Shown: piece by piece, positions 12,060-24,226 of the stretch | Layout of the letters: each line of letters begins with the position of its first letter | How positions within the stretch are numbered: position 1 is the stretch's first letter | NCBI RefSeq assembly: GCF_001888165.1 | Contig: NZ_CP015455.1 | Location: 1,234,001-1,298,000, forward strand | Origin: Syntrophotalea acetylenica | Lineage (GTDB): Bacteria; Desulfobacterota; Desulfuromonadia; Desulfuromonadales; Syntrophotaleaceae | Direction: 5' to 3' | DNA length: 64,000 bases | Program-made: the position numbers and the translations under genes | Notes under the pieces: generated by a model | Database searches by the model: none | Told to the model about the DNA's origin: nothing | What the model saw: only the letters and a program-made list of their open reading frames with translations

Positions 12060-12082
12060 ACGGATATTTCTTTGCCCAATTC

Positions 12083-12116
12083 TTGAGAAAAGCCCGCATG
12101 TGCGGGCTTTTCTCAA
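12083..12116. terminator. Bidirectional terminator
   Basis: Perfect 16-bp inverted repeat (arm TTGAGAAAAGCCCGCA) with TG spacer. The A-run on one side and T-run on the other make it functional in both directions, between the convergent thioesterase and ATP-grasp genes. Confidence 0.9.
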
Positions 12117-12144
12117 GGAATGCCCGGGCAGCTTCTGCCATCCA

Positions 12145-13371
12145 TCAGTATGTTTGCAGGCTTGACGAATTGCCGGGAGACATTACTTCGAGCCCCATGG
12201 CCTGCAACTGTGCGCAGTATTCCTGAGCCTGCGCGCGGTTCCGGGCCAGAATCAGTCCGCTGGCGCGGGCCGGTGCCTCAGGCATTCCGGTATATCGGGG
12301 GTCGCAGGTAACCAGGGGGACGAACATTCTTTTGTGCATCGCTCTGTAAATGGCCTCGATCATGGCCGTGAAACCTTTACCGCATCGGATTCCTGCCAGG
12401 CGCATCATTGGGTAGCAGAAATTCCTGCGGATTTCGGACGCCAGTAAAAGAGCGGGCGTCGATCCGTTGAGGCGGAAATTAAGATCGTAAATACGTATTC
12501 CACCATCCTTCAGGATGGCCATATCCATGCCGACGCAGCCGTGGTAGCCCATGTCGCGGCCTTTTTTGGCAATGCGCTTTCCGGCGTCGATCGCGGCAGC
12601 GGGGGCAGGATCCGTGGTTTCAAGCCAGTTGCCGAAATAAATTCCCCTCTGATCGACAATCTGTTCGCTGCTGCCGAGATAAGTGATTTCACCTTTTTCA
12701 GCAATGGCGTAGTTCAGGCAAAGATTACGGCGAATGGACAAAAATGCCTCTACAACAATCTGGGAGCAATGCCTGAAATCATTCCAGGCTTTACGAACTT
12801 CCTTCGGGGTACGGCAGATCCTGATGTCCCGACCGCCTCCCGTGGTTTCGCAGGTTGCGACTTTTATGACCACCGGCAGGTTGCGGATAAACGGCGAACG
12901 ACCCAGCTGCGCCGGGGGCATGACGCGGCGCTCGGGCAAATACGGTGGATCGACAAAATCCGAAAGACGCCCCTTGTTGTTGAGCAGACGAAGCACATCC
13001 GGATCGATCCAGTATTTTTCAGAATTCCTTTCCGCCGGGCAGGGGGCGTGCTGCAAAGCCAGTCTGAAACCTCTATCCAGTAATATGGCGCACAGACGCT
13101 CATGCTCTGCATTGTTTTTGTAAAGCAGTGTGCGCGGCTCGGGAAAACCGGCATCCCGCAACAGTTGCAGGCCTGCGGGGGTGGCAACGCTTGCGGCGCA
13201 CACTACGGGCATGCTTCCGGATACGGTCAACATCCCGCCGGTCAGCATCTCCAGGGTTAGTGGATCCTGCGGCAACCAGTGGCAAAAACCTGGCGTCGGA
13301 CGCGGGCAGAAGGCCAGCTTTTCCCCGTAGATGGCGTCCAGGGACCGGACAGGGAAGAGTCTCGGCTTCAC
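12145..13371 (-). CDS. ATP-grasp protein A
   Basis: 408 residues. The central and C-terminal parts form an ATP-grasp fold: PVVIKVATCETTGGGRDIRI (phosphate-binding loop), hinge segment IVVEAFLSIRRN, and GMDMAILKDGGIRIYDLNFR with NGS, carrying the Asp/Asn metal ligands. ATP-grasp ligases join a carboxylate to an amine or thiol through an acyl phosphate; the substrate here is unknown. The N-terminal 130 residues resemble a pre-ATP-grasp domain. Its start overlaps the end of the next upstream ATP-grasp gene by four bases, so the two are translationally coupled and probably act together. Confidence 0.75.
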   Translation of the reverse strand: MKPRLFPVRSLDAIYGEKLAFCPRPTPGFCHWLPQDPLTLEMLTGGMLTVSGSMPVVCAASVATPAGLQLLRDAGFPEPRTLLYKNNAEHERLCAILLDRGFRLALQHAPCPAERNSEKYWIDPDVLRLLNNKGRLSDFVDPPYLPERRVMPPAQLGRSPFIRNLPVVIKVATCETTGGGRDIRICRTPKEVRKAWNDFRHCSQIVVEAFLSIRRNLCLNYAIAEKGEITYLGSSEQIVDQRGIYFGNWLETTDPAPAAAIDAGKRIAKKGRDMGYHGCVGMDMAILKDGGIRIYDLNFRLNGSTPALLLASEIRRNFCYPMMRLAGIRCGKGFTAMIEAIYRAMHKRMFVPLVTCDPRYTGMPEAPARASGLILARNRAQAQEYCAQLQAMGLEVMSPGNSSSLQTY

Positions 13372-14270
13372 GACCTGTCCTCGCGGCCGGCGTTGTCCTG
13401 CACGGGGGTAAACCTGTCGCGGGAGGGCAGGTACGCAAAAACCCCCGCGGCCAGATGTTCCAGCATGGCAGCTTGGGCCGGCGTCGGGGTGCGGATGTTG
13501 AATGAAGGGGTGCGGTTGGCATCCAGGAGAATGGTTTGCCCATCGATCTGGACGAAATCGAACTTTCCATAATCGAAACCAAGGTCCTTGCGGCGCTTGC
13601 GCAAGTCATCGGGGATCGCAATGCCGGTCTCCCGGCTTAAAATATTGCGTGCCTTGACAATCGGATTGGGGGAAACGACTCTCTGGCTCATTTCACGGTC
13701 GCCGAAAAATACCCATTGGCGCAGGGCAAAGTGATTGCCTTCCCGTTCAGGCAGAAATTTTTCAACGACCAGATGCCTGTTCCACCAGACCGGTTTGGGC
13801 ACCTGCCCCGGACCGGAAAATATGGGGTAGTTGTCGGGGGAAAGGTGCTTTTTCCAGTACCAGGGCAGGCGTTTTTGGAGCTTTTTTGCCAGACGGGAAA
13901 ACGGCGTGCGCCGCACCAGCCGTTTTTCCATGCCGCCGCCGAAATTCCGGTTGGTTTTAACGAGGACCGGGCCCTGGTAGTTGTCCTTCCGGCCAAGGAT
14001 CAGGGTGCTTATATGACGCTTGGATATGTCCTTGACCAGGCCGTTGATGACGACGGGGTAGCGTTGGCTGAAATGTTCATACTCTTCGGGGATGACGGTC
14101 AGGTCTATGTGCATGAACAGAGCATCGGCCGGCTCATAATGTTTTGGGCCGCGCAGAACCACAATTTCAATTCCCGACTTCGCCCACAGGCTGAGCAAGG
14201 GATGCAGCAGGTAGGAGACGGATTCGAATTGTTGCCTCTCATGGGTCAATATGGCGATTTTCGACGTCAT
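13368..14270 (-). CDS. ATP-grasp protein B (RimK-like fold)
   Basis: 300 residues with an N-terminal Rossmann-like half (KIAILTHERQQFESVSYLL) and a C-terminal ATP-grasp half: GPVLVKTNRNFGGG, hinge LVVEKFLPERE, and the metal-binding end FDYGKFDFVQIDGQTILLD followed by ANRTPS. It resembles RimK-type or YheC-like ligases that add amino acids or related groups. Coupled by a four-base overlap to ATP-grasp A and followed upstream by a glycosyltransferase-like gene on the same strand. Two adjacent, dissimilar ATP-grasp proteins suggest a two-step modification pathway (inference). Confidence 0.75.
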   Translation of the reverse strand: MTSKIAILTHERQQFESVSYLLHPLLSLWAKSGIEIVVLRGPKHYEPADALFMHIDLTVIPEEYEHFSQRYPVVINGLVKDISKRHISTLILGRKDNYQGPVLVKTNRNFGGGMEKRLVRRTPFSRLAKKLQKRLPWYWKKHLSPDNYPIFSGPGQVPKPVWWNRHLVVEKFLPEREGNHFALRQWVFFGDREMSQRVVSPNPIVKARNILSRETGIAIPDDLRKRRKDLGFDYGKFDFVQIDGQTILLDANRTPSFNIRTPTPAQAAMLEHLAAGVFAYLPSRDRFTPVQDNAGREDRS

Positions 14271-14315
14271 GTCTGCTTCGGGCCTCCCCTGTGTTGCGTC
14301 AATACCAAGACGGTT

Positions 14316-15116
14316 TTAAAAGGGTAAAAATGGAATGCGCTTGCCGTTGTCGGAGATTTTTACCGGGTGATAGAGTTTGTTTTTTCGCCATCCGGGCTTT
14401 GTGAAAACGGGGCGAAAACGCATGGTTCCGGTTTTCATCCGGCCCTTCCGGTCGCAGGTGCTGTCGATATAAAATCTGTTCCTGTCCTGGGGATTCACGA
14501 ATTGTCCGGTGCCGCCGAAGTCCTGCAGGCGGTAGCCGCCATGGAACAGCAGGGTGGGGAGCAACTCTTCGTAATGCCCGCTCCAGTCGGTGCGGTGCAT
14601 CTGGTCGACGTAGCGTAGCGCCGGACCGGAGATGCGGTACACGGGGTTGAAGCTGCGATAGCGCCGCGTAAGGGGAATGTGATGTCGCGGGTGATTCAGT
14701 CCCCACCACCACCATTTAGGTTCGTCTTCGTAGCTTCTGATGTGACAGGTGAGAAGATCCGCCTTGCTGGATGAAAAATGACCGAGCAGGACATTCCAGT
14801 CCCCGCGAAACCATACGTCGTATTCGATGACCCAGTAATAGTCGTAGCCTGGGCGCTGTCGCGCAAAAGCCATGACAGGAAAGTGGGTGCTGCCGGGAAC
14901 CAGGGTGTCGCGGAACATGGGAAAGCCCAGTTGTTGCATATCCGGCGTTGTGAACGGATAAACCTGGCCGGGGAAATCCGGTTTGATCCCGTCATTGCAG
15001 TGAAACAGGGTGAATATGTCGGTGAAGGATGAAAGGGTTTCATGTATTCTGTTGAATTCATGGCAATGACGCGGCGCCGCCAGATGTGTGAGCAACAGAA
15101 TGGCCTGACTGATCAT
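14316..15116 (-). CDS. DUF3405-like glycosyltransferase
   Basis: 266 residues from the chosen ATG at 15116 (MISQAILLLTH), which has GAGGGG six bases upstream; the ATG at 15167 has no visible ribosome site. A GT-A-like core is suggested by WVIEYDVWFRGDW, where the acidic pair after a beta strand matches the DxD-like position of DUF3405 proteins, and by DLLTCHIRSYEDEPKWWWWG. Likely a sugar transfer to a surface glycan; donor and acceptor unknown. It heads the leftward half of the 12.1-17.6 kb modification cluster and probably shares the intergenic region 15117-15320 with the rightward half. Confidence 0.6.
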   Translation of the reverse strand: MISQAILLLTHLAAPRHCHEFNRIHETLSSFTDIFTLFHCNDGIKPDFPGQVYPFTTPDMQQLGFPMFRDTLVPGSTHFPVMAFARQRPGYDYYWVIEYDVWFRGDWNVLLGHFSSSKADLLTCHIRSYEDEPKWWWWGLNHPRHHIPLTRRYRSFNPVYRISGPALRYVDQMHRTDWSGHYEELLPTLLFHGGYRLQDFGGTGQFVNPQDRNRFYIDSTCDRKGRMKTGTMRFRPVFTKPGWRKNKLYHPVKISDNGKRIPFLPF

Positions 15117-15320
15117 GTGAAACCCCTCAATCATTCCGATTTGCGCCGCTGCCTGCTGCTGACCCATGTGCTTGGTGGCAAAGCGGCAATTTTATTGACA
15201 ATGGGAAATCTTTAAATAAGAATCGATCCGTTATATCGATAATTATAATGTCAGGTTTGTGACCGGATCGGATGACCGTTTTCGCTGGACACCCGGTATT
15301 TTAATGGGAAAAATCTCTCA

Positions 15321-15947
15321 ATGGAACAAAAAATCTCTGCTTTCCCGGAAGTTGAGAAGTTCGGAGGCCGCAGGCACAAGATCGGCAGAATTATCCTTGT
15401 CGCCGGACCGTCCTGCGCTGGCAAAACAACCCTGATGAAAAAACTGCGGCGGGGGTTGCTGCCCGATTTGCAGAACCGTTTGAAAATGGGTGACCTCGCA
15501 TTCTGGCATTTCAGGGATGCCATGCATATGTCCGATTCGCCTGAGACGCAAATATCCAATCTGGTGCTGCATTACGATATTCTGAGGCTGATGGACCAGG
15601 GTTTTCCCGATTATGCGTCGGATCCGATCATCGGCATGCTGGCATCGTGTGGCGAACTGCTTATATTGACACTCCGGGAGTGCCCGGAGGTACTTTGCCG
15701 ACGTTGTCTGCAGCGGCGTCGCAGAACATGGCGCCTCCTGGCCAGCGGGCGTTTCCGTCTGTTTTGCCAGCGCTACAGGCGGCTTGGCCGAAAAAGTCGC
15801 CTGTACAGTGCCCCCTCGGAGGTCATGGCGCTGTACGAGAACTGGTTCGGGTTTTGCGCGACGCTTGCCGCCACTGAACATCTCGTCGTTCACAGTTTTT
15901 ACCCCGAAAAACCCTTGGCAGGTTTCACGGCGACGCTGACCGTGTAA
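15321..15947 (+). CDS. P-loop NTPase, nucleotide-kinase-like
   Basis: 208 residues. The N-terminus carries a strand-loop-helix Walker A, IILVAGPSCAGKTTLMKKL (residues about 23-41), and later a hydrophobic strand LLILTLRECPEVLCRRCLQRR with an Arg-rich lid-like region, as in small nucleotide or sugar kinases. No family can be named. It leads the rightward half of the cluster, 12 bases before a sulfotransferase. A role in preparing or activating the acceptor, or in making PAPS, is possible, but the APS-kinase signature is not seen. Confidence 0.6.
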   Translation: MEQKISAFPEVEKFGGRRHKIGRIILVAGPSCAGKTTLMKKLRRGLLPDLQNRLKMGDLAFWHFRDAMHMSDSPETQISNLVLHYDILRLMDQGFPDYASDPIIGMLASCGELLILTLRECPEVLCRRCLQRRRRTWRLLASGRFRLFCQRYRRLGRKSRLYSAPSEVMALYENWFGFCATLAATEHLVVHSFYPEKPLAGFTATLTV

Positions 15948-15959
15948 TGGGGGAATGCC

Positions 15960-16808
15960 ATGCCGCATGACGCCGAAATATCCGAAAAACGCATGGTGTT
16001 TATCGCGGGTCTGCATCGCAGCGGCACTTCCCTGCTGCACGATATCCTGCGCTCGCACCCGGATATTTCCGGTTTCCGGGATACCGGCGTGCCGGAAGAC
16101 GAAGGGCAGCATCTGCAGACGGTTTATCCTGCCGCCAGGGTGTTCGGCGGTCCGGGTCGTTTCGGATTCCACAAGGCCAGCTGTATGGCGGATGACCATC
16201 CCCTGGCCACGCCTGAAAACGCCACGCTTTTGTACAAACAGTGGCGGCCGCATTGGGATGTCTCCAAACCCGTGCTTCTGGAGAAATCTCCGCCGAATCT
16301 GGTGCGCACCCGGTTTTTGCAGAAATTGTTTCCCGGCAGCCGGTTTATCGTTGTGCTGCGCCATCCGCTTGCGGTAGCTTATGCAACCCGCAAATGGTGT
16401 CATTCCAGTATTCCCGCCCTCATTGAACACCATTTGCGTTGTCATGAGCGATTTATCCTGGACATGGTCATGCTTGATCATGTGCGGATCCTGCGTTATG
16501 AAGAATTTGTCCGGTGTCCCGCGTTTCATGTTGACAAGCTTTGCGATTGGCTCGGTGTCGACAGGTTTCCCTTTGATCAGCAGGTTCGCACCGACATCAA
16601 TGCAAAATACCTGCAACAGTGGCACGCAGACTGCCAGGGTGTGAGGGGCTGGGGAATAAAAGCCGTATGTTTCGCGCGATGTTTTGAAAAACGGGCGGCG
16701 CGTTTCGGATACAGTGTCCGCACACCGGAAATCCTGTCCTCCGGAGCTTTGCCGGTGATTGGAACGGATATTTTGGATGAAACAGATGAAGTTTCGGAAA
16801 AAACTTAA
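15960..16808 (+). CDS. PAPS-dependent sulfotransferase family protein 1
   Basis: 282 residues. The 5'-phosphosulfate loop is IAGLHRSGTSLLHDILRSHP near the N-terminus, and the 3'-phosphate site is FIVVLRHPLAVAYATRKW (residues about 130-147), the two conserved PAPS contacts of sulfotransferases. It transfers sulfate from PAPS to a hydroxyl or amine, probably on a glycan given the neighbours. It overlaps the following sulfotransferase by 32 bases, which points to one transcript. The acceptor is unknown. Confidence 0.85.
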   Translation: MPHDAEISEKRMVFIAGLHRSGTSLLHDILRSHPDISGFRDTGVPEDEGQHLQTVYPAARVFGGPGRFGFHKASCMADDHPLATPENATLLYKQWRPHWDVSKPVLLEKSPPNLVRTRFLQKLFPGSRFIVVLRHPLAVAYATRKWCHSSIPALIEHHLRCHERFILDMVMLDHVRILRYEEFVRCPAFHVDKLCDWLGVDRFPFDQQVRTDINAKYLQQWHADCQGVRGWGIKAVCFARCFEKRAARFGYSVRTPEILSSGALPVIGTDILDETDEVSEKT

Positions 16809-17589
16809 AAAACTTGTCTGTAAGAGTTTACGGCATCCCTGGGTTTTATGGGGCAGAAAGGACTATGTATTCATTCTGAGCCACATGCGAAGCCGGTCGA
16901 CGCTGCTCTCGCATATTCTTGGCAGTCATCCCCGTATTTGCGGTTATGCCGAGATGCACCAGTCCTATGAAACTCCTGTTGATCTTCTCTGGCTGCGGCA
17001 CCAGCTCCAGCAGCGTGGGGAAAAAAGCCCTGTCGGACGATTTGCGCTGGATAAAATGCTGCACGATGCGCAAATCCTTTCCCCCAGCATATGCGACCAT
17101 CCCCATATCAAAAAAATATTCCTGCTCAGGCCGCCGGCCGAAGCGGTAAAAAGCATTATCCATATGGGCCATACGCTGAAAAATGTAGCCTGGCATACCG
17201 ATCCGGTTGCGGTTTTCAGCTATTACAATCAACGGCTGCAAACCCTTGGCAATTACGCAAAACGGACAAAGATCCCGGGATTTTTTATCGAATCCGGGGA
17301 TATGATCCAGCGCCCCGGGAGGCTGCTGGAGGCACTGTCGGCCTGGCTGGATCTGGAGGCAAAGCTGCAGTCAACCTACTCCACGTTCAGATACACCGGG
17401 CAGGAAAAGCACGGCGACCCTTCCGCCAACATCAAGGCCGGGAAGATTCTTTCCCAAAAATCCGATTACACCACCATTGTTCTCGATGAAAATCTGCTTT
17501 CAGCAGCTCATGAGAATTACCTTTCCACATGCGAAACCATGCAAAGGCATTGCGTTACGGCTGATTCCCTGCCGTTTCAGCATGTTTGA
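16777..17589 (+). CDS. Sulfotransferase family protein 2
   Basis: 270 residues from the ATG at 16777 (MKQMKFRKKLKKL). Its PAPS loop is FILSHMRSRSTLLSHILGSHP and a strand IKKIFLLRPPAEAVKSI supplies the 3'-phosphate region, where RPP replaces the usual RHP/RDP. It is diverged from the preceding protein, so the pair is not a recent duplication; the two probably sulfate different positions or acceptors. Its 3' end overlaps the convergent penicillin-binding protein gene by 35 bases. Confidence 0.75.
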   Translation: MKQMKFRKKLKKLVCKSLRHPWVLWGRKDYVFILSHMRSRSTLLSHILGSHPRICGYAEMHQSYETPVDLLWLRHQLQQRGEKSPVGRFALDKMLHDAQILSPSICDHPHIKKIFLLRPPAEAVKSIIHMGHTLKNVAWHTDPVAVFSYYNQRLQTLGNYAKRTKIPGFFIESGDMIQRPGRLLEALSAWLDLEAKLQSTYSTFRYTGQEKHGDPSANIKAGKILSQKSDYTTIVLDENLLSAAHENYLSTCETMQRHCVTADSLPFQHV

Positions 17590-18997
17590 GGATGCCGGCG
17601 GTGGCGGATCGATCCGCGGCGGTGCTGAACATTTTCTTGAAATATTGAGTCATCGCCATGCGCGCATATTGGCCGGCGCGGGTGCCGATGTAATCCTCGT
17701 GGGCCACGAGGACGGCGACGGCCAGATTGGCCTTGCCGCTCAGCGCTCTGGCAAAACCGACGAACCAGTCATAGCGGATGTCGTGGGTCTGGTTGTCCAT
17801 CGACCCGGTTTTGCCACCGATCTGAAGCTGTGACAGGGTCTCGTCCTTATCGTGGCCCTGGAATGATTTGCGGGCCGTGCCCGAGGTGATGGTGGCTTCC
17901 ATCATCTGGCCGAGAACCGCCGCCGCTTTCGGGGACATGATCTGACAATCGGGGGATTGCCTGCCCTGATAGAGAAGATTGCCTTTACTGTCGAGTATGC
18001 GATCGACAAGGGATGGCTTCACGCTACGCCCCTGATTCAGGACCGCGGATACCATGATCGCCCCGTGCAGTGGGGAAATGGTGGTATCGCGGTTGAAGCC
18101 GCTGGCGATTTCAGCCCAGTTGTAAGGATCGTCGGTGATCTGGAAGTGACTCGGCTGCAGGGTCATGTCAAAGTCGATGGTTTCATTGAACCGGAACGTT
18201 TCGGCGGTTCTCGCCAGGACCGTTTTTCCCAGACTGTGCTCCCCGAGTTTCCCGAAAACCGGGTTGATTGATTGTGCAAAGGCTTCTTTGAAGGAAACCG
18301 TGTTGGTGTGCTTGTTGACCTTTTGGGTAAGTTGCTGCTTGTAAAGGGTATGTTTGTAGCCATTGAAACGCATGGTTGAATCGGCGGAGTAGTTACAAAT
18401 GTCTACCGCCGAAGCCGCGGTTACGATCTTGAAAATGCTCGCGGCCGGGAAGTTGCTGCGCAGGCAGGGATTGCCGGCGGTTCCGGTCTTGTCATAGCCC
18501 GCCATGGCAAGGATGCGGCCGGTGTCGGCATCCATGACCACGATGCCGATATCCCGGGAATTTTTGCGGTCCATGTTGGACAGCAGGTAATTCTGCAGGT
18601 CCTGGTCCAGGCTGGTCTCGATCTGCAGGGTCTGCTGACCGAGGTGCAGTTGCAGACGTCCATCGGTCAGATTGTCAAAAGACTGCCGGTCCAGCAGTCT
18701 GCGAATATCGTTTTTGCCGGAGATTGCCGGGGCACTTTGCGGCACGGGCGCCGCTGCGGTAGCAGTTACCATGTTTTTGGCCACGTCACTCTTGATCAGC
18801 GACTGGCAGCCGAACACTCCCGCGGAAAACATAAGGGCGAAGGCGCAGATTTTTCTGCCGATGCGACGTTTGCGCAATGACCCAACCTGTGGATTCCTGC
18901 GTACGTTCAGCCGCATTCCGCCTTGATTCTGCAACCCGGACTGAAAACCTCGCCAACCGCCCGGACCATCCGATGGTAATGAATTTTTTTTACGCAT
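17555..18997 (-). CDS. Penicillin-binding transpeptidase domain protein
   Basis: 480 residues, envelope-anchored. A basic stretch and a membrane helix (about residues 46-64, ICAFALMFSAGVFGC) precede the periplasmic domain; the Cys could be a weak lipobox. The transpeptidase triad is complete: SxxK as SIFK, SxN as SIN, and KTG as GGKTGSM. No transglycosylase, PASTA or obvious dimerization domain is seen, so it is a short monofunctional class B-like D,D-transpeptidase. The start at 18997 lacks a strong ribosome site; the ATG at 18916 is the alternative. Convergent with the sulfotransferase, 35-base overlap. Confidence 0.8.
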   Translation of the reverse strand: MRKKNSLPSDGPGGWRGFQSGLQNQGGMRLNVRRNPQVGSLRKRRIGRKICAFALMFSAGVFGCQSLIKSDVAKNMVTATAAAPVPQSAPAISGKNDIRRLLDRQSFDNLTDGRLQLHLGQQTLQIETSLDQDLQNYLLSNMDRKNSRDIGIVVMDADTGRILAMAGYDKTGTAGNPCLRSNFPAASIFKIVTAASAVDICNYSADSTMRFNGYKHTLYKQQLTQKVNKHTNTVSFKEAFAQSINPVFGKLGEHSLGKTVLARTAETFRFNETIDFDMTLQPSHFQITDDPYNWAEIASGFNRDTTISPLHGAIMVSAVLNQGRSVKPSLVDRILDSKGNLLYQGRQSPDCQIMSPKAAAVLGQMMEATITSGTARKSFQGHDKDETLSQLQIGGKTGSMDNQTHDIRYDWFVGFARALSGKANLAVAVLVAHEDYIGTRAGQYARMAMTQYFKKMFSTAADRSATAGILKHAETAGNQP

Positions 18998-19214: not shown

Positions 19215-19907
19215 TCATAAGTCCGTTGCCGTGGATATCGGGAAATGTCTGCAGATAGTTTCCAGATGCAGCGGATCCATCTGCTGGAATTCCACACCGA
19301 TTCCCGGCACCTGCATGGCATGTCCCCAGGCACAGAAATGGCGTATTTCAACCTGCACCGGCGGAATCCGGGGTATGTCCCTGAAGCGCACCCAGGCCGT
19401 TTTCGTGCCCTGCCAGTCTTGATTTGATATTAAAAAGCAGCCTCCCCGAGAGATGTCGAGGGTGACGGTTTTTTCCGCCTGCGCCTCGGCGCAATTCGCG
19501 TCCCTGCTCAACAAAACGTTGAAATGGATTCGATATCGGGGCGTGACCCGGCATACCCGCGCAGGGCGGTGACGGCAGAACATTTCCAGAAAGGCTCCCA
19601 GAGGGTCGGCCTTGTCCAGACTGCGTCCCAGGACCATGCCGCGGATTTTACGGTTTTTTTCATCCCATCGCGCACGAAACGTCGGATAGATTTCTGAAAA
19701 CCGCTGGATTGTCGGTTTGTCCTTGTGGGGCGCGCGTACCGCTGTCAATACATCCAGAATCAAGCCGTTAAAGGGCCTGTTCCGTAGGATCTGCTGCATT
19801 TCCTCGATGCTTTTGGCGACTTCACACTCCGAACCCAAAGTCGATACCGCCTTGCGGTAGGCCTCCGTTGCCTTTGCATTGGTTGAAATGATGAGAACTT
19901 TGTTCAT
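19215..19907 (-). CDS. PilZ-domain protein with receiver-like N-terminus
   Basis: 230 residues from ATG 19907 (MNKVLIISTN). Residues 1-100 resemble a degenerate receiver fold (KVLIISTNAKATEAYRKAV, then GLILDVLTA). The C-terminal half is PilZ-like: an Arg motif RYRIHFNVLLSRD followed by LDISRGGCFLIS, the D/NxSxxG signature of c-di-GMP binding, although the first motif is weaker than RxxxR. It would couple c-di-GMP to an unknown output. Longer upstream starts would translate the 177-bp repeat and are rejected. Confidence 0.7.
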   Translation of the reverse strand: MNKVLIISTNAKATEAYRKAVSTLGSECEVAKSIEEMQQILRNRPFNGLILDVLTAVRAPHKDKPTIQRFSEIYPTFRARWDEKNRKIRGMVLGRSLDKADPLGAFLEMFCRHRPARVCRVTPRYRIHFNVLLSRDANCAEAQAEKTVTLDISRGGCFLISNQDWQGTKTAWVRFRDIPRIPPVQVEIRHFCAWGHAMQVPGIGVEFQQMDPLHLETICRHFPISTATDL

Positions 19908-19940
19908 GGATCCGATTTGTCCGGGGTTGAAAAACCAGAG

Positions 19941-20117
19941 AGTTTTCATCCGGAAACGGCTCTTTTCCGCCGTGGCGGCGTCAATCCGCAGGCTTGCTTG
20001 TGCGGCGTACCGATGTACGCCTCCGCGCAACCCCTTGATTTCCTTGCCACAACGAAAAATTGCTCGATTCCCATATGAAAACTAACCTGTATCCATCCGG
20101 AGTTTCCAGATGGATAC
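19941..20117 (+). repeat. 177-bp dispersed repeat, copy A (left flank of arsenic operon)
   Basis: Aligns without gaps to 24034-24210, about seven mismatches in 177 bases, same orientation. Internal hairpins include GGCGTAC-CGAT-GTACGCC and CCGCA...TGCGG; the right end is the 29-bp palindrome at 20089-20117 (arm GTATCCATCCGGA). Confidence 0.95.
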
Positions 20118-20654
20118 CAGAGAGTTCATGTTTTATATAAAAAAGTCGGGAAAAGACATAATGTCACATTTCCACGCTGTCATGCCCTTTATGATAGCAG
20201 ATTTTTCAAGACCCGGTTCTGAACATCCGTAAGAGGTGTCAAGGGTCAGTGTTATTAAGCAGGGCAAAGCAGGCGACTATGGATGGTATCCATCCGGAGT
20301 TTCTGGACGGATATTGATAACCCATCTTGATCCGACGTGTACAGATTCTTTTGCTCCGCTGACGGAAGAAAGCGCAGTCGCGCGGATTGCGGAGACTTTG
20401 GGCCATGCTGTTTTAGTCAATGGGACAGGCGTTCTTCCTCCAGGTATGTGATTTGTGCTTGAATAAATCCCAAAAACCGGATATAAGGATATTATATGGT
20501 TGCTCCATGCCTTCGAGGGTAAAGATCCGCGGATATTTTACCCGCCGGTCGTATCGAACAGGGCAAGGCCAAAGGGTTTTATGAGGATGCATCATTGCAG
20601 CAACATTGTCAGAAAAGGGCAGGCAATGTTTTTCAGCGAACCTCCGGAGATTTC
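20118..20654. other. Intergenic region before arsC
   Basis: 537 bases without a supportable gene. It contains one degenerate palindrome copy at 20286-20314 and AT-rich patches near 20480-20500 (ATATTATAT) that could hold the ars promoter. An open frame at 20236-20451 has no recognisable protein content. Confidence 0.5.
20286..20314 (+). repeat. Palindromic repeat, degenerate copy
   Basis: Left arm GTATCCATCCGGA intact, right arm changed (TCTGGACGGATAT). Same family as 20089-20117, 24182-24210 and 42476-42504. Confidence 0.75.
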
Positions 20655-22961: not shown

Positions 22962-24035
22962 ATGAACAATCAATCCGGCGCGTCTCCGGTAACCGAAGAC
23001 ACGCTTTCAAACAATTTTTTCAGTAAATTTCTCGGCATTAAAATCGGCCTGTTGCTGGTCGCATGGTTCATGCTCTATCGCCAGCTTTTACCCCTTTCAC
23101 GTTTCCTGACTTATGACCTGTTCGGGTTGCGGGCGGAATCGCATTTGGGATCGGCGGTGGAATTCTTCCTGTACGATACCCCCAAGGTGTTGATGCTTCT
23201 GGTTCTGGTCGTATTTGGCGTCGGCATATTGCGCAGCTTCATCACGCCGGAATGGACGCGCAAAATCCTCGCCGGCAGGCGCGAAAGCACCGGGAATGTG
23301 CTGGCTGCCCTTCTTGGTGTGATAACGCCCTTTTGCTCCTGTTCGGCAGTTCCCCTGTTTATCGGATTCGTCACCGCCGGCATTCCGCTGGGGGTAACCT
23401 TTTCCTTCCTTATCTCCGCCCCGATGGTCAACGAAATTGCCCTGGTGCTGCTGTTCGGCCTGCTGGGTTGGAAGGTGGCCACCCTGTATTTCGTTACCGG
23501 CATCGTCATCGCCACGGTAGCGGGCTGGACCATCGGACGCTTGAAACTGGAAAGTCATGTGGAAGACTGGGTGCGGGAAATGCATGCCAACGCCGCGGCA
23601 ACACCTGACACGACCATGACCTGGGAAGAGCGGGTCGGTTTCGGCCTCGACGCCGTGCGGGACATCGTCGGCAGGGTGTGGCTGTATGTGGTCATCGGCA
23701 TTCTGGCCGGGGCTGCTATTCACGGCTTCGTGCCGGAAAACTTCATGGCCGGTATCATGGGCAAGAGCGCCTGGTGGTCGGTGCCGGTTTCTGTGTTGAT
23801 CGGCATCCCCATGTACACCAACGCCGCCGGCATGATTCCGGTGGTCGAAGCGCTGCTCGGCAAGGGCGCCGCGCTGGGTACGGTGCTGGCCTTTATGATG
23901 AGCGTCATCGCTCTGTCCTTCCCCGAGATGGTGATTTTGCGCAAGGTCCTCAAACCGAGGCTCATCGCAACCTTCATTGGCGTCGTCGGAGTGGGTATCC
24001 TGCTCGTCGGTTACCTGTTCAATCTTGTCATTTAG
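22962..24035 (+). CDS. arsP: UPF0718/ArsP-like permease
   Basis: 357 residues, about eight to nine membrane helices. ATG 22962 has AAGGAG eight bases upstream. The family signature TPFCSCSAVPLFIGF lies in the first half and a matching IPMYTNAAGMIPV in the second, as in DUF318 permeases such as ArsP, which exports trivalent organoarsenicals. The context (arsC, arsR) supports an arsenical substrate, but related permeases move other metals. The stop codon at 24033-24035 runs into the second 177-bp repeat. Confidence 0.75.
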   Translation: MNNQSGASPVTEDTLSNNFFSKFLGIKIGLLLVAWFMLYRQLLPLSRFLTYDLFGLRAESHLGSAVEFFLYDTPKVLMLLVLVVFGVGILRSFITPEWTRKILAGRRESTGNVLAALLGVITPFCSCSAVPLFIGFVTAGIPLGVTFSFLISAPMVNEIALVLLFGLLGWKVATLYFVTGIVIATVAGWTIGRLKLESHVEDWVREMHANAAATPDTTMTWEERVGFGLDAVRDIVGRVWLYVVIGILAGAAIHGFVPENFMAGIMGKSAWWSVPVSVLIGIPMYTNAAGMIPVVEALLGKGAALGTVLAFMMSVIALSFPEMVILRKVLKPRLIATFIGVVGVGILLVGYLFNLVI

Positions 24036-24210
24036 TTTCCATCCGGAAACGGCCCTTTTCCGCCGTGGCGGCGTCAATCCGCAGGCTTGCTTGTGCGGCG
24101 TACCGATGTACGCCTCCGCGCAACCCCTTGATTTCCTTGCCACAACGAAAAATTGCTCGTTTCCCATATGAAAACTACGCTGTATCCGTCCGGAGTTTCC
24201 GGATGGATAC
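24034..24210 (+). repeat. 177-bp dispersed repeat, copy B (right flank of arsenic operon)
   Basis: About 96% identical to 19941-20117, same orientation, no indels. It begins within two bases of the arsP stop and ends in a 29-bp palindrome at 24182-24210. Confidence 0.95.
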
Positions 24211-24226
24211 TAGATAAATTTCTTGC

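Follow-up and report, generated by a model that had tools for sequence, protein, structure and literature searches.

A conserved divergent six-gene locus combining a pair of ATP-grasp proteins with a putative glycosyltransferase, a P-loop protein and two sulfotransferases

Layout of the divergent locus

The stretch of DNA analysed here (the window, 64,000 nucleotides) corresponds to positions 1,234,001-1,298,000 of a 3.2-Mb genome (G000); the closest relatives that carry a name belong to the Desulfuromonadales, among them Pelobacter sp. UBA6812 (G005). An earlier note on this DNA had described six genes in two divergent sets around a shared control region, and all six open reading frames were confirmed at this place; they are intact and make up two operons that run in opposite directions. 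Transcribed leftward from the reverse strand, in the order C>B>A, are a DUF3405-like, GT-A-like putative glycosyltransferase (C, 14316-15167), a divergent ATP-grasp protein with a predicted RimK/LysX/glutathione-synthetase fold (B, 13368-14270) and its partner, a putative ATP-grasp ligase related to LdmS (A, 12145-13371). Transcribed rightward from the forward strand, in the order D>E>F, are a small-molecule kinase-like P-loop protein with the Walker A motif GPSCAGKT (D, 15321-15947), a Sulfotransfer_3 sulfotransferase (E, 15960-16808) and a second, very divergent sulfotransferase (F, 16777-17589). The reading frame of F is open from a TTG at 16759, and the gene probably begins at one of the ATG codons at 16777 or 16786 rather than at this TTG. 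The genes are tightly packed, with a 4-bp overlap between A and B, an overlap between E and F, and gaps of 45 bp between B and C and of 12 bp between D and E.

Since the relative of C in UBA6812 begins at the equivalent of codon 18, C itself probably starts there (15116), and the control region between the two arms then spans 15117-15320, in agreement with the boundaries given in the earlier note. This region carries promoter-like sites on both strands, which overlap one another (15195-15223 on the forward strand and 15216-15189 on the reverse); these are weak signals, as the 6-kb region has five such sites in all where 3.3 would be expected. At the other end of the leftward operon, between A and an opposing thioesterase gene, a 22-nt inverted repeat (12077-12122) probably acts as a bidirectional terminator. 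No convincing small gene for a carrier protein, a small peptide or a precursor was found in the cluster gaps (45, 12 and ~200 bp). The GC content of the locus lies near the local mean; B, C and D had no plasmid match and F had no match among viral contigs, and a recent mobile-element origin was rejected on these grounds.

The ATP-grasp pair A-B

In the case of A, a profile search matched LdmS (NF047900) with 184.9 bits, short of the equivalog cut-off of 475, so that its substrates may differ from those of LdmS. The profile of the A family aligned over its full length (16-401) with PDB 7r8p_A at 254 bits, a structure that we take to be LdmS, and the ATP-grasp residues K170, E208, D296 and N298 were invariant across 13 sequences. 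As judged from its sequence, A is homologous along its entire length to the L-Asp-L-Met ligase LdmS and is predicted to be of the dipeptide-ligase type.

With E values of up to 1 allowed, B matched none of the families in Pfam or NCBIfam, and it had no convincing match among PDB sequences. A structure model of B (pLDDT 94.1) was closest to RimK (Z 15.9), LysX (15.7), ArgX (15.4) and glutathione synthetase (14.5), with an rmsd of 3.2-3.6 over 232-237 aligned residues, and by this model B has an ATP-grasp fold. Because inositol-phosphate kinases tied with these ligases in the fold comparison (PPIP5K2, Z 15.4), ligase chemistry for B can be called likely but not more.

A and B form an obligate pair. 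Among 98 relatives, B was present in six genomes and A in precisely the same six, adjacent to B in every one; under independence, two such sets would coincide with a probability of about 1 in 10^9, although these genomes are not fully independent, four of them coming from one genus. We then surveyed B with one genome per species, across 84,980 species, keeping the best 80 of 203 B relatives. Those kept came from Desulfuromonadales, Myxococcota, Planctomycetota, Verrucomicrobiota, Gemmatimonadota, Balneolota and many Pseudomonadota, and at 19 of these best 80 of 203 loci, spread over several phyla, a relative of A was found, nearly always directly downstream of the B gene and on the same strand. 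On a tree of 59 B proteins, linkage to A required 5 changes, compared with 14.3 in shuffles, and the A-linked proteins fell into two main groups, so that the pairing is old.

The neighbourhoods of these genes were varied. (Neighbourhood clustering from mechanically called reading frames was noisy in GC-rich loci and was used for leads only, which were then checked by family searches.) In L018, L073 and L014 (= L084) the A-B pair has family-2 glycosyltransferases as neighbours, and in L038 a Mur ligase, B and A form one operon of overlapping genes, an arrangement that speaks for peptide-like amide bonds. Relatives of B without A were seen beside methyltransferases, as in the window genome's own paralog (L015, judged by eye), L013 and L038. 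A B-family gene also lies between two sulfotransferases in L059, one of them fused to an Asp/Asn-hydroxylase-like domain, and in L030 a B-family gene is followed by a sulfotransferase. In most A-B genomes, no sulfotransferase was found near the pair.

Sugar- and sulfate-related genes and their conservation

The earlier note had described C as a DUF3405 glycosyltransferase. C scored 22.5 bits against DUF3405 (PF11885), below the cut-off of 25, while its structure model (pLDDT 68.5, a middling value, built from four sequences) matched GT-A enzymes, including B3GalT6 (E 1.6e-6) and mannosylglycerate synthase (Z 13.6), with nucleotidyltransferases close behind. By this model C resembles a GT-A-like glycosyltransferase, and would act as one. 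A paralog of C in the window genome adjoins a gene that reads as UDP-galactopyranose mutase (glf). No C was found in 398 genomes of another phylum, in a search run without a positive control, and our literature search for DUF3405 found no paper.

The sole recognised feature of D is its Walker A P-loop, from which we infer that it may be an active small-molecule kinase. Neither D nor F was found, beyond the known carriers, in 297 genomes drawn from the phylum. APS kinase (PF01583) was not among the Pfam matches of D up to an E value of 1, and D is at best a possible APS kinase, as there is no family match and the window genome has both D and an intact APS-kinase domain. The attraction of that identification lay in UBA6812, which is without an intact CysC domain.

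As the earlier note had proposed, E and F are unlike sulfotransferases. E matched Sulfotransfer_3 (PF13469) with 85.6 bits against a cut-off of 27 and carries a 5'-PSB-like motif (GLHRSGTSLL) and a 3'-PB-like motif (RFIVVLRHP), both largely identical in UBA6812; it is distantly like tyrosylprotein sulfotransferases. F matched the same family with 29.6 bits (cut-off 27), with only 35 N-terminal residues aligned, and has little in common with E beyond the N-terminal phosphosulfate-binding motif. A sugar context for sulfotransferases of this kind, also suggested earlier, was borne out by relatives of E, 40% identical, on alphaproteobacterial plasmids, where their neighbours include glycosyltransferases, glf, HAD-IIB hydrolases and trehalose genes; a further relative, in a Sphingomonas genome, lies beside a flippase-like gene.

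The six-gene arrangement is conserved beyond what chance would produce, because the whole set recurs in UBA6812 with the same order and strands at 43-63% identity (A 55%, B 63%, C 62%, D 43%, E 62% and F 63%). In both genomes, B and A are preceded by C in one operon. The two loci also have the same flank on one side, with a penicillin-binding-protein gene and a PilZ gene, and the end of a thioesterase gene on the other, which in UBA6812 lies beyond an inserted gene set. At the equivalent chromosomal place, the genome of a sister species (G004) has A-B alone, between the thioesterase and penicillin-binding-protein genes, and A-B without C-F is likewise found in G002 and G008. C-F was present in two genomes only, that of the window and UBA6812, and is a rare addition to A-B that one other species has. 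In a tree of A, the window groups with G004 and UBA6812 falls outside (support 99/98), so that either G004 has lost C-F or these genes have passed from one lineage to another.

Turning to the sulfate donor, we compared seven genomes from the genus and family, of which only the window genome and UBA6812 had sulfotransferases above the family cut-off. An intact APS-kinase domain was seen in the window genome alone among the genomes compared, fused to CysN (CysNC), and because of this domain the window genome is probably able to make PAPS. In G004 and UBA6812 the equivalent CysC domain lacks its P-loop, and a search of the UBA6812 assembly, which is 84% complete, found no APS kinase elsewhere; its source of PAPS may have been missed by this assembly, or D or another kinase may stand in.

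One product or two neighbouring modules

We tentatively favour a reading in which all six genes would belong to a cytosolic pathway whose product would be a small glycoside or glycoconjugate carrying sulfate and amino-acyl (or dipeptidyl) groups. The ancestral core of the locus would be A and B, which would act together as an amide-ligase module in two steps: ATP would turn a carboxylate into an acyl phosphate that is then attacked by an amine. C, the leading gene of its operon, would transfer the sugar, D would phosphorylate an intermediate, and E and F would place sulfate on two different positions, using PAPS supplied by the separate CysNC protein. A single product for the six genes, which the earlier note had proposed as a sulfated, possibly aminoacylated glycoconjugate, is put forward here as a conjecture, as are the order of the steps and the identities of the sugar and the amino acids. 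We prefer a joint product because C lies in the operon of B and A, because the whole set is kept in UBA6812, and because sugar and sulfate enzymes adjoin A-B or relatives of B in other lineages. Counting against it are the occurrence of all six genes in only one other genome, and the fact that UBA6812 has sulfotransferases although its CysC is without a P-loop and a further APS kinase could not be found there.

The joint product competes closely with two independent modules lying side by side, a realistic possibility in which A-B would be a stand-alone synthesiser of small peptides (di- or tripeptides), as LdmS is, and C-F a separate module for the sulfation of a glycan or glycoside that has settled beside it. 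This would explain the presence of A-B without C-F in G004, G002 and G008, its position beside housekeeping genes in Burkholderiales, Piscirickettsiaceae and others, and the failure, for 8 of 11 additional genomes with A-B, to find an E-type sulfotransferase at any position. Since most genomes with the pair, including G004 at the same chromosomal place, have no sulfotransferase nearby, a common product is not required. Of the link between the two arms that the earlier note had drawn, the co-occurrence was thus upheld in one other species (UBA6812), whereas A-B proved to be independent and widely spread, a result that goes halfway towards the refutation specified in that note. The enzyme classes it had assigned were borne out (ATP-grasp for A and B, a GT-A-like transferase for C, a P-loop protein for D and two unlike sulfotransferases for E and F), and the earlier interpretation as a whole is partly supported. 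It is harder to reconcile separate modules with the position of C as the leading gene of the B-A operon in each of the two genomes, in an order kept at ~60% identity, with the glycosyltransferases that adjoin A-B in three other lineages, or with the sulfotransferases beside B-family genes in L059 and L030.

Alternatively, the enzymes might decorate the sugar building blocks of a surface polysaccharide, a capsule or O-antigen, for which other parts of the genome would be responsible. One relative of E does have capsule-like surroundings that include glf and an ABC exporter, and the window genome's paralog of C adjoins glf; this explanation is nevertheless unlikely, as other relatives of E accompany HAD-IIB hydrolases and trehalose genes, suggestive of small glycosides, and no polymerase, flippase or exporter gene was recognised among the neighbours read (7.7-22.9 kb). 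A cluster without such genes is more in line with a small product than with a surface polymer. We regard it as very unlikely that B, and perhaps A, adds residues to a protein as RimK does, or to a carrier protein as LysX and ArgX do, with no link to sugars: these are the closest folds to B, but the gaps hold no gene for a carrier protein or small peptide, and the partners of the B family vary (methyltransferases, sulfotransferases and glycosyltransferases) as they do in metabolite clusters. Finally, a RiPP or graspetide cluster, in which B would macrocyclise a peptide that is later sulfated, is barely credible and was set aside, since the gaps (45, 12 and ~200 bp) contain no precursor reading frame and A is of the dipeptide-ligase type, even though graspetide macrocyclases were among the Foldseek matches of B.

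Beyond the joint product itself, a broader and more doubtful proposal is that A-B is an undescribed cross-phylum module of two ATP-grasp enzymes joining amino acids to acceptors that are either free or linked to a sugar, combined here with glycosylation and double sulfation to give a new class of sulfated aminoacyl-glycosides, for which CysNC would have been kept intact as the source of PAPS. Literature searches joining ATP-grasp with sulfotransferase and with dipeptide, glycosyltransferase or amidoligase returned, within their partial coverage, nothing relevant and no paper on this gene set. In the two-gene ATP-grasp pair there is a system that occurs in several phyla, one half of which is invisible to Pfam, and whose product is described in no paper that we found. 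The six-gene set is defined well enough for its product to be sought by isotope labelling, and the genus offers a natural contrast between species with A-B only and species with A-B together with the sugar and sulfate genes.

Several known or partly similar systems can be set beside the locus. A sulfated-glycan-type cluster on a plasmid of Leisingera caerulea (NZ_CP081076) likewise has an E-type sulfotransferase followed by a second sulfotransferase, together with glycosyltransferases and glf; it differs in having export genes and no detected homologue of A, B, C, D or F. The mini-cluster L059, in a Lysobacterales MAG, also combines a B-family ATP-grasp protein with two flanking sulfotransferases, but is without A, C and D, and its B comes from another branch of the family. 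RimK, LysX, ArgX and glutathione synthetase have a fold in common with B (Z 14.5-15.9), whereas B is only ~7-13% identical to them, matches no Pfam or NCBIfam family, and has no carrier-protein or target gene nearby. For A, the comparison is with the L-aspartate--L-methionine ligase LdmS of Staphylococcus aureus (7r8p/7r8q), for which a passage of PMC13338154 cites Pederick et al. 2022 (doi 10.1016/j.jbc.2022.102392). Here the two proteins differ in that A falls far below the equivalog cut-off (184.9 versus 475 bits) and may use other substrates, and they are alike in aligning over their full length, with the ATP-grasp residues kept in A.

CysN and its APS-kinase domain

A CysN protein carrying an APS-kinase domain is encoded in the window genome and in two sister species (at loci L109, 4643-6529; L112, 4385-6187; and L113, 1511-3334). 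The APS-kinase domain is intact in the window genome, and in both sister species it has decayed, with loss of the P-loop. One of these two species still has the sulfotransferases.

The penicillin-binding-protein flank

On the side of the sulfotransferase gene F, the cluster adjoins a gene on the minus strand (17555-18997) for a penicillin-binding-protein transpeptidase-domain protein whose N-terminus is short. The 3' end of this gene and the end of F share 35 bp. In both sister species, a radical SAM gene that is absent from the window (L009, 9736-11334, and L010, 13409-14842) separates the cluster from the penicillin-binding-protein gene.

B-family loci in other genomes

Elsewhere, B-family ATP-grasp genes were observed in other settings: a mini-cluster (L059, 1057-4820), where one accompanies a sulfotransferase and a second sulfotransferase fused to an aspartyl/asparaginyl hydroxylase-like domain; an operon of overlapping genes in an Akkermansiaceae genome (L038, 10916-14330), where a B-family gene stands with a Mur ligase gene and an A-family gene; and, by eye, a tandem run of several B-family-like genes at a single locus (L055, 7387-11804).

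A palindromic repeat family

Two copies of a palindromic repeat of ~180 bp lie in the window (19941-20121 and 24034-24214), and the PilZ ORF (19215-20030) takes its initial residues from this repeat. The window genome holds ~40 or more copies, mostly at 93-97% identity. The repeat's predicted fold is far more stable than those of shuffled sequences, with a z of -9.6 for the minus strand. An Rfam search with the repeat gave no match. Elsewhere in this genome, two proteins that by eye resemble REP-associated transposases (L100, 14680-15339 and 16596-17372) could mobilise the repeat.
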